Below are positions 3,010-7,299 of a stretch of DNA of 64,000 nucleotides, piece after piece. The first letter of the stretch is position 1, and each line of letters begins with the position of its first letter. The stretch covers positions 9,735,001 to 9,799,000 of the forward strand of contig NZ_CP030050.1 in assembly GCF_015291705.1 (NCBI RefSeq). The letters run 5' to 3'. The DNA comes from Bradyrhizobium arachidis. GTDB lineage: Bacteria > Pseudomonadota > Alphaproteobacteria > Rhizobiales > Xanthobacteraceae. Both the position numbers and the translations under genes were made by a program. Under the pieces are notes generated by a model. The model worked only from the letters and a program-made list of their open reading frames with translations. It was not told the origin of the DNA and made no database searches.

Positions 3010-3136
3010 GTCGTCCCCGCGAAAGCGGGGACCCATAACCACAGGCCGTTGTTTGGCGAAGACTCGCAGTTCGGTACCGCGACCTTCAACGATCGATAGA
3101 TTCCGCGGTATGGGTCCCTGCGTTCGCAGGGACGAC
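3010..3136. repeat. Intergenic palindromic repeat, family A (copy 1)
   Basis: The element is bounded by GTCGTCCCCGCG and CGCAGGGACGAC. Inside are the family signature CCCATAACCACAGG and TTGGCGAAGACTCG. It lies between the starts of mtnP and the end of the carrier protein gene. Five further copies are in the window (6951, 29631, 35974, 48807, 51235). Confidence 0.92.
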
Positions 3137-3158: not shown

Positions 3159-3431
3159 TTAAGCCGCGGCCGCCAGCTTCAGCTGGGTCGCAACCATCCG
3201 TTCCAGCGTCTCGACCGACTGGAAATTCTCCGGCGTGATCTCGGCTTGCGGGATGGTGAAGTCGAACTCGGCTTCGACACCCAGCATCAGATTGACCATG
3301 TCCATCGAGGTCAGGCCGACGTCGACGAGCTTCGCCTGTGGCGTGACATCAGCGCTGAGCGAGTTCTGCGCGAGGATGCCCTTCACCAGCTTGATGATGC
3401 GATTGCGCAATTCGGTGTCGAAGGCCTGCAT
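3159..3431 (-). CDS. Acyl carrier protein-like protein, probable aminoacyl carrier
   Basis: This 90-residue protein has the fold of phosphopantetheine carriers. It is helical, with the attachment motif VDVGLTSMDMV, in which Ser42 would carry the 4'-phosphopantetheine arm; TSM replaces the usual DSL. I chose the ATG at 3431 because GGGAA lies at ribosome-binding distance; an in-frame ATG at 3455 would add eight residues. It is divergent from the acyl-CoA-dehydrogenase-like gene and close to the amino acid:carrier-protein ligase. In B. japonicum the corresponding ligase charges a small stand-alone carrier encoded nearby (established knowledge), so this is the likely partner. It is not the fatty-acid AcpP, which carries DSL and sits with fab genes. 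Confidence 0.92.
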   Translation of the reverse strand: MQAFDTELRNRIIKLVKGILAQNSLSADVTPQAKLVDVGLTSMDMVNLMLGVEAEFDFTIPQAEITPENFQSVETLERMVATQLKLAAAA

Positions 3432-3788
3432 CGGTAAATTCCCATCTGTCATCAAAGTCGGACCGGTCGCCGGCTACGATGGGCACGGCCAGCCGATCTC
3501 GCAATGGGCGTCACCATTACTTCGGGTTTCTTAGTAAACGATGACTCAGATTGTCTGGAATTCGCCCTTCTTCCAGAACCCTAACGCGAGCTTCGAATTT
3601 CCGGCGATGCAAACAACCGGACCTTAACTGTCCATTCGGAATTGGGCTTCGTTTACCCTCTATTTCATCGACGAATTTGAATTAAATCCGTAGCCTCGTC
3701 TCACAAGCAAAGATGGTCGGGGGATCGCTCTACACGGCGTCGCGAATGATGCCGGCGATCCTGAACGGCAAACCGGAGGCGGACGAGT
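3432..3788. other. Divergent control region of the carrier-protein/ligase unit
   Basis: This 357-base spacer separates the leftward carrier-protein gene from the rightward dehydrogenase-ligase-GNAT genes. From about 3530 to 3690 it is clearly more AT-rich than the flanking genes, which fits promoters on both strands. I could not assign a convincing -35/-10 pair or an RpoN site. GGAGG at about 3775 is the ribosome binding site of the rightward gene. No gene is seen. Confidence 0.5.
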
Positions 3789-5006
3789 ATGAACGTGCGT
3801 GAAGCGGTCCTCACTGTCGACGATACACAAACGAGTTTTCTCGAACAGGGTCCCTCCCTGATCGAGCGCGCTGCCCGGACCGCCGCTGCGGCGGCTGCCG
3901 ACGCAGACGGCGTCGATCGCGACGCCCGCTTTCCCCATAAAGCGTTCGACGTCGCACGGGAGCAAAAACTGCTCGGCGTCATGATCCCGGTCGAGTTCGG
4001 CGGCTTCGGTGCCTCGATCCACGACGTCACCGACATCTGCTACACGCTCGGGCGCGCCTGCGCCTCGACCGCGATGATCTACGCGATGCACACGACAAAG
4101 GTCGCTTGCGTGACCAGGCACGGCCACGGCATTCCCTGGATGGAAACCATGATGCGCCGGGTCGCGCGCGACCAGTGGCTGCTCGCCTCCTCCACCACGG
4201 AAGGCCAGAACGGCGGCAACGTCCGTTCCAGCGCGGCGGCGGTGGATCACGCCGACGACACCATCTCGCTGGTGCGCGACGCCACAGTGATCTCCTACGG
4301 TGCCGAGGCCGACGGTCTCGTCACCATCGCCCGCCGCGCCACCAATGCTGCCGCTTCCGACCAGGTGCTGCTGGCGCTCGCCAAGGACGACTATTCGCTG
4401 AAGCAGACCCAGGGCTGGGAAACGCTCGGCATGCGCGGCACCTGCTCCACCGGTTTCGAGCTGAAGGTCGATTGCCCCGCCGACCGCGTCTTCCCCGAGG
4501 CCTATGACAAGATCCACGCCCAGACCATGACGCCGTTCGCCCATCTGTGCTGGTCGTCGGCCTGGGCCGGCATTGCCGCCGCCGCCGTCACGCGCGCGCA
4601 GGCCTTCATCCGCAAGGCGGCCCGTTCGTCCGGCGGGCAGATGCCGCCAGCCGCCGCCCATTTCACCGCTGCGAAGATGTCGCTCGCAAAACTGCGCGCG
4701 CTGATCGCGGCCAATATCGATGCCTTTGCCCGCGCCGAGCATGACGAGCGCGCGCTCGGCTCGCTCGACTTCCAATCCTCGATCACGCTGCTCAAGGTGC
4801 AGGCCTCCGAGCTCGCGGTCGAGACCGTGATGCACGCGATGCGCACCGCCGGCCTCTCCGGCTACCGTAATGACGGCGAATTCACCATGGGCCGTCACCT
4901 GCGCGACGTGCTGTCGTCGCCGATCATGATCAACAACGACCGCATTCTGGCCAACGCCGCGACCTCGACGCTGATGAGCGGCGTGCCGGCAAGCCTTCAT
5001 GACTGA
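3789..5006 (+). CDS. Acyl-CoA dehydrogenase-like flavoprotein
   Basis: The 405-residue protein has the three-part acyl-CoA dehydrogenase fold: an N-terminal helical part to about residue 125, the FAD-contacting beta part with LLASSTTEG near 135, and a C-terminal helical bundle ending RHLRDVLSSPIMINNDRI. In medium-chain dehydrogenases the catalytic Glu lies in the YEGT that follows the same RxxRD helix. Here the aligned positions read MINN, so the usual base is absent. The enzyme may use another base or may be a flavin oxidase or monooxygenase. It opens the rightward transcript, with GGAGG before the ATG, and is followed 39 bases later by the ligase. Oxidation of a carrier-bound aminoacyl group, as in prolyl-carrier oxidases, is an inference. 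Confidence 0.9.
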   Translation: MNVREAVLTVDDTQTSFLEQGPSLIERAARTAAAAAADADGVDRDARFPHKAFDVAREQKLLGVMIPVEFGGFGASIHDVTDICYTLGRACASTAMIYAMHTTKVACVTRHGHGIPWMETMMRRVARDQWLLASSTTEGQNGGNVRSSAAAVDHADDTISLVRDATVISYGAEADGLVTIARRATNAAASDQVLLALAKDDYSLKQTQGWETLGMRGTCSTGFELKVDCPADRVFPEAYDKIHAQTMTPFAHLCWSSAWAGIAAAAVTRAQAFIRKAARSSGGQMPPAAAHFTAAKMSLAKLRALIAANIDAFARAEHDERALGSLDFQSSITLLKVQASELAVETVMHAMRTAGLSGYRNDGEFTMGRHLRDVLSSPIMINNDRILANAATSTLMSGVPASLHD

Positions 5007-5045
5007 AACAACAAGAACAATTTTCAGATAGCAGGACACCATCCC

Positions 5046-6026
5046 ATGAACATTGCCGTCCTCCCCAACTCGCCCGAGACCGCGCCTGAAATTGCCGATC
5101 CGCTCGATCATCTCGCCGACAAGCTGTTCCACCGCATGGGCTCGGACGGCGTCTATGCGCGCACCGCGCTCTATGAGGGCGTCGTCGAGAAGCTCGCCGC
5201 GCTGATCACTCGGCATCGCGAGGCCGGCACCGAAGCGCTGCGCTTCCCGCCGGTGATGAGCCGGGCCCAGCTGGAGAAATCAGGCTATCTCAAGAGCTTT
5301 CCGAACCTGCTCGGCTGCGTCTGCGGCCTGCACGGCACCGAACGCGAGATCAACGCCGCGGTGAGCCGCTTCGATGCCGGCGGCGACTGGACCACCTCGC
5401 TCTCGCCGGCCGACCTCGTGCTCTCGCCCGCCGCCTGCTATCCGGTCTATCCGATCGCGGCGAGCCGCGGCCAATTGCCAAAGGGCGGCCTGCGCTTCGA
5501 CGTCGCCGCCGACTGCTTCCGCCGCGAGCCGTCGAAGCATCTCGACCGGCTGCAATCGTTCCGGATGCGCGAATATGTCTGCATCGGCACGCCCGATGAC
5601 GTCGCCGATTTCCGCGACCGCTGGATGGTGCGCGCGCAGAAGATCGCGACCGACCTCGGCCTGACCTTCCGTGTCGACTATGCCAGCGACCCCTTCTTCG
5701 GCCGCGTCGGCCAGATGAAGGCGGTGAGTCAGAAGCAGCAGCAGCTCAAGTTCGAGCTCTTGATCCCGCTGCGCTCGGAAGAGCAGCCGACCGCCTGCAT
5801 GAGCTTCAACTATCACCGCGAACATTTCGGCACGACCTGGGGCATCCAGGACGCCAATGGCGAGCCCGCTCACACCGGCTGCGTCGCCTTCGGCATGGAT
5901 CGCCTCGCCGTCGCCATGTTCCACACCCACGGCACCGACCTTTCCGCCTGGCCCGCCAAGGTGCGGGAGATCATGGGCATGCAGTCGCAGATCGCGACTG
6001 AAGCCCATGGCGAAGGCTGGCGCTAA
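5046..6026 (+). CDS. Amino acid:[carrier protein] ligase (seryl-tRNA synthetase homologue)
   Basis: This 326-residue protein is a class II aminoacyl-tRNA synthetase catalytic core without the tRNA-binding arm. Motif 2 is seen in FDVAADCFRREPSKHLDRLQ and motif 3 in GCVAFGMDRLAVAMF. Cys131, Glu176 and Cys279 fall exactly where I recall the zinc ligands of the characterised B. japonicum enzyme Bll0957, which is also 326 residues. That enzyme activates glycine or alanine with ATP and loads it on the phosphopantetheine of a small carrier protein instead of tRNA (established knowledge). The carrier is probably the product of 3159-3431. The gene lies between the dehydrogenase-like and GNAT-like genes. 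The downstream use of the aminoacyl thioester is not established. Confidence 0.96.
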   Translation: MNIAVLPNSPETAPEIADPLDHLADKLFHRMGSDGVYARTALYEGVVEKLAALITRHREAGTEALRFPPVMSRAQLEKSGYLKSFPNLLGCVCGLHGTEREINAAVSRFDAGGDWTTSLSPADLVLSPAACYPVYPIAASRGQLPKGGLRFDVAADCFRREPSKHLDRLQSFRMREYVCIGTPDDVADFRDRWMVRAQKIATDLGLTFRVDYASDPFFGRVGQMKAVSQKQQQLKFELLIPLRSEEQPTACMSFNYHREHFGTTWGIQDANGEPAHTGCVAFGMDRLAVAMFHTHGTDLSAWPAKVREIMGMQSQIATEAHGEGWR

Positions 6027-6067
6027 CTCAACTCACGAGGCCTCCCATTTCCACGGGCAAGACGAGC

Positions 6068-6943
6068 GTGATCCACACCAAGGTCCGATGCCGCGAGATC
6101 ACCGAAGCCGACGTCGAGAAGGTCGCAGACCTGTTGACGCGCGGCTTTGTCGGCCGCTCGTACAATTACTGGATCCAGGGCCTGCGCCGGCAGGCCTTCC
6201 GGCCTGTGCCGGAGGGCTACCCGCGCTTCGGCTACATGCTCGACAATGACGGTACGCCGGTCGGCGTGCTGCTGCTGATCTACACGACGCGCAAGGTCGG
6301 CGAGGAGACCGCCATCCAGTGCAATTTGTCGAGCTGGTATGTCGATCCGGCCTACCGCAACTATGCGCCGCTGCTGACCAAGATCGCGCAGCGGCACAAG
6401 GACGTCACCTATCTCAACATCTCGCCGGCGCCGTGGACCTGGCCGATCATCGAGACCCAGGGTTTTCGCGCCTATTGCCGCGGCATCTTCTTCTCCGTGC
6501 CGGCGCTGACGCGCGCCCCGCGCTGGAGCAAGATCGAGGTCATCCCGCAGCACGCCAAGGCCATCGAGGGACTTTCCGCCGAGGAGACTGAGCTGTTGAC
6601 GCGGCATGCGCGCTACAATTGCCTCAGCCTGGTCGTCCGCACGCCGAAGGGAACGTTCCCGTTCATCCTGCAACCAGTGCGCATCCGCCGCGGCTTCATC
6701 GCGCCGCCCGCGATGAAGCTGATCTATTGCCGCAGCGCCGCCGAATACGCCGCCTGCGCCGGCCGCATCGGCCGGCTCTTGCTGCGGCTCGGCAAGATCT
6801 CGGTCGCGGTCGATGCCAACGGCCCGATCCCCGGCCTCGCCGGCATTTATACCGAGCGGCGCGGCCGCAAATATTTCAAGGGCCCGCACCGCCCGCAGCT
6901 CGGCGACCTCACCGACACCGAGCTCGTGCTGTACGGACCGTAG
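6068..6943 (+). CDS. GNAT-like acyltransferase, putative acceptor step of the carrier-protein system
   Basis: The 291-residue product begins like a GNAT domain. It has CREITEADVEKVADLL at the N-terminus, the beta strand PVGVLLLIYTTR near residue 65, and a turn-helix YVDPAYRNYAPLLTKIAQ where acetyl-CoA binding would occur, followed by a second less clear half. The start is GTG at 6068, 41 bases after the ligase stop, so it is the last gene of the rightward transcript. Because its neighbours make an aminoacyl thioester on a carrier, this protein could accept that thioester instead of acetyl-CoA; this is inference. It ends just before a family A repeat that could act as terminator. Confidence 0.75.
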   Translation: MIHTKVRCREITEADVEKVADLLTRGFVGRSYNYWIQGLRRQAFRPVPEGYPRFGYMLDNDGTPVGVLLLIYTTRKVGEETAIQCNLSSWYVDPAYRNYAPLLTKIAQRHKDVTYLNISPAPWTWPIIETQGFRAYCRGIFFSVPALTRAPRWSKIEVIPQHAKAIEGLSAEETELLTRHARYNCLSLVVRTPKGTFPFILQPVRIRRGFIAPPAMKLIYCRSAAEYAACAGRIGRLLLRLGKISVAVDANGPIPGLAGIYTERRGRKYFKGPHRPQLGDLTDTELVLYGP

Positions 6944-7299
6944 GCCTCTTGTCGTCCCTGCGAACGCAGGGACCCATACCGCGGAATCTATCGGTAAACG
7001 CAAGGTCCCAGTAACGCGGCAAAGCCTCTTCACGGCCAGTCTTCGCCAAACGTCTTCCTGTGGTTATGGGTCCCTGCGTTCGCAGGGACGACAGCGGAAC
7101 AGCGGAGTTTGCTGCGCGCTCTCGGGCCAACTCTGGCTTGCAGGCACTTCCGCATTCGCGTGCCGGCACAGACCTTTCCCCATCGCCAGTCACCCTCCGT
7201 AAACTACTGCGCTTAAGGGAATTTTCCCGCCTGTTCGCTACCCTCGGCGCCCGAATTACGTTGCGTTAAGTCTATTGCCCGCCGAGACCCGCCGATCCC
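6944..7299. other. Spacer with a family A repeat, no gene seen
   Basis: The 356-base spacer between the GNAT-like gene and the GGDEF/EAL gene holds the family A element at 6951-7092. The remaining 200 bases, up to the ATG at 7300, show no supported open frame. They presumably contain the promoter of the GGDEF/EAL gene, for which I see no clear hexamers. Confidence 0.5.
6951..7092. repeat. Intergenic palindromic repeat, family A (copy 2)
   Basis: Bounded by GTCGTCCCTGCG and CGCAGGGACGAC, this copy carries CCTGTGGTTATGGG near its right end, so its core lies opposite to copy 1. It starts eight bases after the stop of the GNAT-like gene, a position suited to transcript termination or 3'-end protection. 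Confidence 0.92.

Follow-up and report, generated by a model that had tools for sequence, protein, structure and literature searches.

We analyzed a 64,000-nucleotide stretch of Bradyrhizobium arachidis DNA (contig NZ_CP030050.1, positions 9,735,001 to 9,799,000; referred to here as the window), which belongs to a genome assembled as a single contig of 9.87 Mb. Near its start lies a four-gene unit encoding a stand-alone carrier protein (CP1), a flavoprotein of the acyl-CoA dehydrogenase (ACAD) superfamily, a seryl-tRNA synthetase (SerRS)-like ligase, and a Gcn5-related N-acetyltransferase (GNAT)-like protein. Our data indicate that the carrier, flavoprotein, and ligase genes form a conserved cassette. 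The features of the unit are as follows:

3159..3455, minus strand: stand-alone aminoacyl carrier protein CP1 (PF00550; PDB 4h2s_C; LTSM motif)
3456..3788, no strand: divergent control region (alignment of the window with 13 chosen Bradyrhizobium loci)
3789..5006, plus strand: ACAD-superfamily flavoprotein without either catalytic Glu (PF02771/PF00441; alignment columns over 196 sequences; canonical paralogs)
5046..6026, plus strand: SerRS-like amino acid:carrier protein ligase (NF005479; PDB 3mey; zinc ligands)
6068..6943, plus strand: tandem-GNAT protein of an unnamed family (AlphaFold2 model; fold matches)

These coordinates bear out the original prediction, made from the letters of the window, that four such genes lie within 3.8 kb around a divergent control region. 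The three plus-strand genes (flavoprotein, ligase, and GNAT) are separated by gaps of 39 and 41 bases. The order carrier, flavoprotein, ligase, GNAT was identical in all 80 Bradyrhizobium loci compared, the best 80 of 132, whose ligases all share 84% identity or more. Genes for methylthioadenosine (MTA) phosphorylase and MtnA (869-2881 in the window) each adjoin the unit in 77 of these 80 loci, and a match to a PAS-GGDEF-EAL protein lies near it in 72. Since the flanking genes are also kept in Bradyrhizobium, synteny within the genus says little.

We found that the ligase scores 485.3 bits against NF005479 (cut-off 357) and aligns end to end with PDB 3mey (Bll0957; 326 of 326 residues); by sequence, it is an ortholog of Bll0957. 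Its class II core occupies residues 123-291, a tRNA-binding domain is absent, and the zinc ligands Cys131, Glu176, and Cys279 are present. The residues and the 3mey alignment therefore confirm what had been described as a truncated SerRS-like ligase with these three ligands. Its cognate stand-alone carrier is encoded nearby (3159-3455). The amino acid used by Bll0957 we take to be glycine. According to the available text of a 2022 review, which draws on work from 2013, the role of the amino acid attached by SerRS-like ligases is unknown (PMC9437257). Among phage records, the sole weak match to the ligase is a distant ligase-like protein (24% identity) on an unannotated faecal 'Bacteriophage sp.' contig (L089).

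CP1 scores 27.3 bits against PF00550 (cut-off 20.8) and matches PDB 4h2s_C, 'Aminoacyl carrier protein 1', the crystallized carrier partner of Bll0957, with an E-value of 2.6e-46. Because this PDB ortholog aligns with CP1 from residue 8 onward, the true start of CP1 is probably at 3431, which would give a protein of 90 amino acids. The Ser within the LTSM motif is the expected phosphopantetheine site. A PF01648 search found no match within the window, in agreement with the earlier statement that it holds no phosphopantetheinyl transferase (PPTase), and the rest of the genome has three PF01648 genes. The CP1 query also matched residues 42-96 of PDB 8zt4 ('Carrier protein,GNAT family transferase'), an entry absent from the matches listed for the GNAT query.

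Within the divergent control region, two blocks (3527-3553 and 3651-3697) are largely kept between the window and the 13 chosen Bradyrhizobium loci, and a near-palindrome lies at 3736-3753. In the available text of a study of a Bradyrhizobium diazoefficiens phaR mutant, the PhaR motif GGCATCGCGAAT is predicted at -52 of bll0958 (PMC10888616); the window site at 3736 coincides with the position of this motif and differs from it by one base. The same text reports that, at 0.5% oxygen, bll0957 and bll0958 RNA both rise 3.0-fold in the mutant and that their proteins rise by 2.5 and 1.7 log2 units, respectively (PMC10888616). This joint rise supports joint expression of the ligase and the flavoprotein, the PhaR site being predicted only. 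We also looked for the conserved promoter block in 23 chosen loci, allowing up to six mismatches: L139 has it with three mismatches, 17 loci have no match, and the five others match only at six mismatches, which we took as chance.

We next consider the cassette beyond Bradyrhizobium. Of the 248 genomes sampled from the family, 58 have an NF005479 match (51 over the cut-off); the figures are 70 of 297 for the order (64 over the cut-off) and 44 of 398 for a phylum sample (28 over the cut-off), these samples having genomes in common. From ligases above 200 bits we compiled 200 loci, the 80 Bradyrhizobium loci included; since the latter partly overlap the sampled genomes, neither the 200 loci nor the 196 flavoprotein sequences discussed below are independent. 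A full-length ACAD flavoprotein gene is present at 194 of the 200 loci and is cut by a contig end at five more, leaving a single locus without one (Tsukamurella L097). L242 and L243 have no detected carrier. By comparison, a contrast set of 12 stretches whose ligases score 80-124 bits against the window's ligase shows no ACAD. For such weak ligase rows, 11 of the 23 in the order and phylum samples were fetched. Ligase relatives under the NF005479 cut-off at L146 and L246-L256, from several families, have no detected ACAD.

Two plasmids and one Bradyrhizobium case deserve mention in their own right. On the Tsukamurella plasmid (L097), ligase, carrier, and PPTase genes lie in an exopolysaccharide cluster among glycosyltransferases, with no ACAD in the shown stretch. 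On a Priestia megaterium plasmid (L095), an AcpS-CP-ACAD-ligase set adjoins genes for a drug/metabolite transporter (DMT), an ATP-grasp ligase, an alanine permease, and an alanine racemase, neighbors hinting at an alanine-based peptide. Bradyrhizobium japonicum SZCCT0153 carries the locus twice (L038 and L040), approximately 386 kb apart on one contig and with equal gene identities, which may reflect a duplication or an assembly artefact.

The 120 loci outside the Bradyrhizobium set, which the DUF1839 search covered, fall into distinct groups: 67 contain a DUF1839 gene (type B), usually followed by a GH2 glycosidase gene, 42 contain the GNAT gene, two contain only a gene for an adenosine monophosphate (AMP)-forming ligase, and nine contain none of these. 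DUF1839 and GNAT genes never occur together (0 of 120). In a ligase tree of 126 rows, made by a quick method with a midpoint root, 50 type-A rows and five others share a branch with a support of 100, and 67 type-B rows and two others share a branch with a support of 91. The 52 and 75 fetched stretches and six plasmid loci were compared in a single analysis. Annotated type-B examples come from Rhizobium, Azospirillum, Shinella, Mycetohabitans, and Caballeronia. In the clade of the window's ligase, the GNAT gene stays with the ligase gene across genera, even where inversion and insertion have occurred. Conservation of all four genes, which the original prediction had offered as its check, is thus found in part: the dehydrogenase gene is kept next to the ligase gene, and the GNAT gene occurs in only one of the two ligase clades.

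The flavoprotein has two superfamily domains over their cut-offs (PF02771, 45.3 bits; PF00441, 29.8 bits). Every one of the 196 sequences, from 195 loci plus the window, has His101, Glu138, Tyr170, Arg216, His252, Trp255, Trp259, Arg369, Arg372, Asp373, and Asn383. Position 381, the Glu/Asp of the canonical YEGT motif, is Ile in 188 sequences and Val in eight; position 251, elsewhere the Glu of an ER pair, is Ala in 143, Ser in 48, Thr in four, and Cys in one. A catalytic acid (Glu or Asp) is found at neither position in any of the 196 flavoproteins. Canonical ACADs of the same genome were compared by fetching 12 of 53 genome matches, from which 11 open reading frames at 10 loci passed the profile; each of the 11, two of which look like one gene seen twice, has an acid at one of the two positions. 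Since both base positions are lost throughout, the flavoprotein does not appear to be an ordinary desaturase, and oxidation, if any, would work differently. The lack of a beta carbon in glycine, the presumed substrate of Bll0957, fits this reading. The flavoprotein may oxidize the CP1-bound aminoacyl group. Its PDB matches do not discriminate between reactions: dehydrogenases score much as do the amine N-oxygenases KijD3, DnmZ, and nitrososynthase.

The GNAT protein matches no Pfam or NCBIfam family, and PDB searches with its sequence and profile gave nothing credible. Its AlphaFold2 model has a predicted local distance difference test (pLDDT) score of 93.1, and the predicted fold matches tandem GNAT structures. 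By fold, then, the protein is predicted to be a tandem GNAT; the earlier GNAT-like label holds at this level and has no counterpart in a sequence-family match. A glucosamine N-acetyltransferase heads the VIA-align rows in a tie with many other entries, and the listed fold matches are N-acyltransferases. We collected 2291 homologs; among the seven members of set A1, one matches PF13480 at an E-value of 0.26. No relative was found in the viral contigs scanned for the GNAT protein.

The AMP-forming ligase introduces a second set of genes. In Rhodopseudomonas, a second carrier (CP2), an AMP-forming ligase (approximately 460 amino acids), and a FabG-like short-chain dehydrogenase/reductase (SDR) are encoded between the ligase and GNAT genes. 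In another genus the same module follows a convergent GNAT gene, and two genomes from the genus of the window carry it upstream of CP1. Overall, the AMP-forming ligase gene is near the SerRS-like ligase gene in 32 of the 120 loci, in at least three arrangements and usually with CP2 and SDR. The window's genome contains this second-arm operon at C1:9,073,075-9,075,467, approximately 663 kb from the unit, and its AMP-forming ligase is 70% identical to that of Rhodopseudomonas.

We then counted co-occurrence among the 248 genomes of the family, using thresholds of more than 150 bits for GNAT and an E-value up to 1e-80 for the AMP-forming ligase; the count omitted eight genomes with GNAT matches at or below 82 bits and six weak-ligase genomes, and retained G161, whose ligase is split at a contig end. 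The ligase was present in 52 genomes, the GNAT protein in 45, and the AMP-forming ligase in 43. Among the 41 genomes with a type-A ligase, GNAT and the AMP-forming ligase each occur in 40, and the one genome without both (G068) is 66% complete. Within the genus of the window, all three occur in 13 genomes and none of them in four others. GNAT is present in all 43 genomes with the AMP-forming ligase; three of these 43, and five genomes with GNAT, have no type-A ligase. The GNAT gene therefore pairs with the second-arm operon at least as well as with the SerRS-like ligase, and transfer of the aminoacyl group by GNAT is accordingly only a possibility.

Other genes recur near type-A ligases. In the type-A stretches (L109-L159 and L234-L243), genes for a BCAT-like aminotransferase are found in 17 of 50, a FadD-like synthetase in 13, and a thiamine diphosphate (ThDP) enzyme in 10, and O-acetylhomoserine sulfhydrylase and MetA-like genes are near seven of 50 clusters each; none of them occurs in the 67 type-B clusters. 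We considered these neighbors as pathway members and rejected them, their distribution being too uneven.

Genomic context points to a glycan or amino sugar as the likeliest acceptor. Plasmids of Shinella and Methylocystis carry GNAT homologs next to polysaccharide genes. A GINT1_N gene adjoins the Shinella GNAT gene, and another lies beside the cluster at the type-A locus L237, with homologs at L238 and L239. On two Rhodobacterales plasmids, relatives of CP2, the AMP-forming ligase, and SDR are encoded among glycan and acyltransferase genes; compared with the window's genome, the Qingshengfaniella AMP-forming ligase is 37%, the SDR 49%, and the carrier 56% (over 57 residues) identical. The GH2 gene of type-B clusters and the glucosamine N-acetyltransferase at the top of the tied fold rows also count toward a glycan context.

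Taken together, we tentatively favor, at somewhat less than even confidence, the reading that the four genes are the amino-acid-loading and oxidizing arm of a two-carrier acylation pathway whose acceptor would likely be a glycan or sugar. A PPTase encoded outside the window would arm CP1. The ligase would then adenylate a small amino acid and load it onto CP1, as others have shown for the ortholog. The near-universal linkage of their genes suggests that the flavoprotein would act on the CP1-bound aminoacyl group. Given that neither ACAD Glu is present and that glycine has no beta carbon, the likeliest chemistry would be oxidation between the alpha carbon and nitrogen (to an imine, then a glyoxylyl group) or N-oxygenation, with His252 as candidate base. 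The families of the second arm suggest that its AMP-forming ligase would load an acid onto CP2 and that the SDR would reduce it. Finally, the tandem GNAT would transfer one of the two acyl groups, or join both, on the acceptor. A more detailed version, which we consider distinctly unlikely to be right in full, has the SerRS-like ligase and the Glu-less, His252-dependent flavoprotein make an oxidized-glycine thioester on one carrier, in glyoxylyl, imino, or N-oxygenated form, and the AMP-forming ligase and SDR make a hydroxyacyl thioester on the other, with GNAT combining them or installing them on a glycan; a sister version with a papain-like transferase would be found in the DUF1839/GH2 clusters.

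Several observations weigh against the two-carrier reading. The AMP-forming ligase gene is at none of the 80 Bradyrhizobium loci, where the flanks are MTA-salvage and PAS-GGDEF-EAL genes, and in the window's genome the two arms are linked by relatives only. Co-occurrence is concentrated in three genera, which makes the counts non-independent. The clade split is imperfect: two of nine type-B genomes in the family also have GNAT elsewhere, and, in the type-A clade, L238 and L239 have the AMP-forming ligase gene and no GNAT gene nearby and L137, L158, L236, L242, and L243 have neither nearby. L137 and L158 both sit on short contigs, and both genes are present on another contig of the L137 genome. 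The two exopolysaccharide-linked GNAT homologs have no ligase gene within the 7 kb shown per side, and the four-gene unit itself contains no glycan gene. The AlphaFold2 model of the flavoprotein is poor (pLDDT 41, with 16 close rows), so the active site and the role suggested for His252 rest on sequence alignments; the substrate and product assignments likewise draw on gene content and sequence.

The strongest competing explanation holds that two separate pathways are neighbors, with GNAT serving only the CP2 arm as a sugar or amine acyltransferase and CP1, ligase, and flavoprotein making something else. The universal presence of GNAT in genomes with the AMP-forming ligase, the three that have both and no type-A ligase, and a sister ligase clade that manages without GNAT at its locus all agree with it, yet the two arms are found together in 40 of the 41 type-A genomes, and GNAT adjoins the ligase in Bradyrhizobium loci though the AMP-forming ligase is not at the locus; we consider this explanation unlikely, if well worth weighing. 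The original prediction instead saw a self-contained, minimal pathway in which the flavoprotein oxidizes the loaded aminoacyl group and GNAT passes it to an acceptor. The constant gene order in Bradyrhizobium and a GNAT gene that follows the ligase clade across genera favor this view, but 'self-contained' and 'minimal' do not survive the finding that CP2, the AMP-forming ligase, and SDR adjoin the unit in other genera, the AMP-forming ligase lying inside the cluster there and occurring in 40 of 41 type-A genomes; with GNAT and the AMP-forming ligase also present in three genomes lacking a type-A ligase, a four-gene pathway is improbable.

It is quite improbable that the flavoprotein is an ordinary alpha,beta-dehydrogenase converting alanyl-CP to dehydroalanyl-CP, much as prolyl-peptidyl carrier protein (PCP) dehydrogenases act on proline: its Pfam placement in the ACAD superfamily and weak matches to prolyl-carrier dehydrogenases would suit this role, and the absence of an acid at both catalytic positions in 196 of 196 sequences argues against it. 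LuxI enzymes have a GNAT-like fold, and the MTA phosphorylase and MtnA encoded next to the unit at 77 of the 80 Bradyrhizobium loci could recycle the by-product of an S-adenosylmethionine-using, LuxI-like signal synthase, but this is very improbable given that no MTA-salvage match lies within approximately 6 kb at other-genus loci or at L126 and L143 of the window's genus (the N-acyltransferases among the listed fold matches exclude nothing, and missing LuxI rows prove nothing).

Paired palindromes resembling repetitive extragenic palindromic (REP) elements flank the unit at 3010-3136 and 6951-7092 in inverted orientation. We considered them as borders of a mobile element and rejected this, since the repeat is genome-wide (65 sites at two or fewer mismatches); REP-like repeats occur on both sides of the unit in only seven of the 80 Bradyrhizobium loci. 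The flanking palindromes are an ordinary repeat.

If the two-carrier reading is true, SerRS-like amino acid:carrier protein ligases gain a biological role. The suggested larger pathway with a second carrier is a concrete lead on the purpose of these tRNA-synthetase-like ligases. The question of role becomes one of named gene sets: a near-invariant oxidizing partner with a changed active site, the second-carrier operon, which at approximately 663 kb away could not be guessed from the window, and two transferase modules that alternate in step with the ligase tree. We found no prior description of the cluster in the literature searched, a weak negative since most subscription papers lay outside its coverage.

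Among known systems, the closest are the SerRS-like ligases of Bradyrhizobium and Agrobacterium (Bll0957, 3mey, 4h2s-4h2y), of which the ligase and carrier here are orthologs; the Bll0957-type work, in the text available, ends at loading, and here a flavoprotein, a GNAT protein, and an unlinked second-carrier operon are tied in. The DUF1839 clusters contain an identical type of CP-ACAD-ligase cassette but differ in their separate ligase clade and in lacking both GNAT and the CP2 arm at the locus. One source, in its accessible part, places DUF1839 among papain-like proteins and proposes, on contextual grounds, a possible acyl-CoA-dependent role in glycan processing at the cell wall (PMC10318531). 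The prolyl-PCP dehydrogenases (RedW, PDB 4irn) are likewise ACAD-superfamily flavoproteins encoded beside a carrier and an amino-acid-loading enzyme, whereas here the profile scores are weak, the catalytic Glu is missing, and the amino acid and reaction would be others. Amine N-oxygenases with the ACAD fold lack the dehydrogenase Glu and act on sugar nucleotides; KijD3, DnmZ, and nitrososynthase appear among the PDB matches of the flavoprotein, but it scores no better there than against dehydrogenases. A comparable but different set, assembled from genomic context, comprises MetRS paralogs with ACP, ACAD, GNAT, and BtrH-like proteins (PMC2922099, available text). According to the portions of the sources available, AlmEFG and Dlt place an amino acid or acyl group on a stand-alone carrier from which a dedicated transferase passes it to an acceptor (PMC12930378), and BtrH of butirosin biosynthesis passes a carrier-loaded group to its acceptor in the same manner (PMC10318531). 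The likeness of the present system to Dlt, AlmEFG, and BtrH lies in a group that is loaded on a stand-alone carrier and then moved by a transferase; it differs from them in the fold of its ligase, in the flavoprotein step, and in having GNAT or DUF1839 as the likely transferase.

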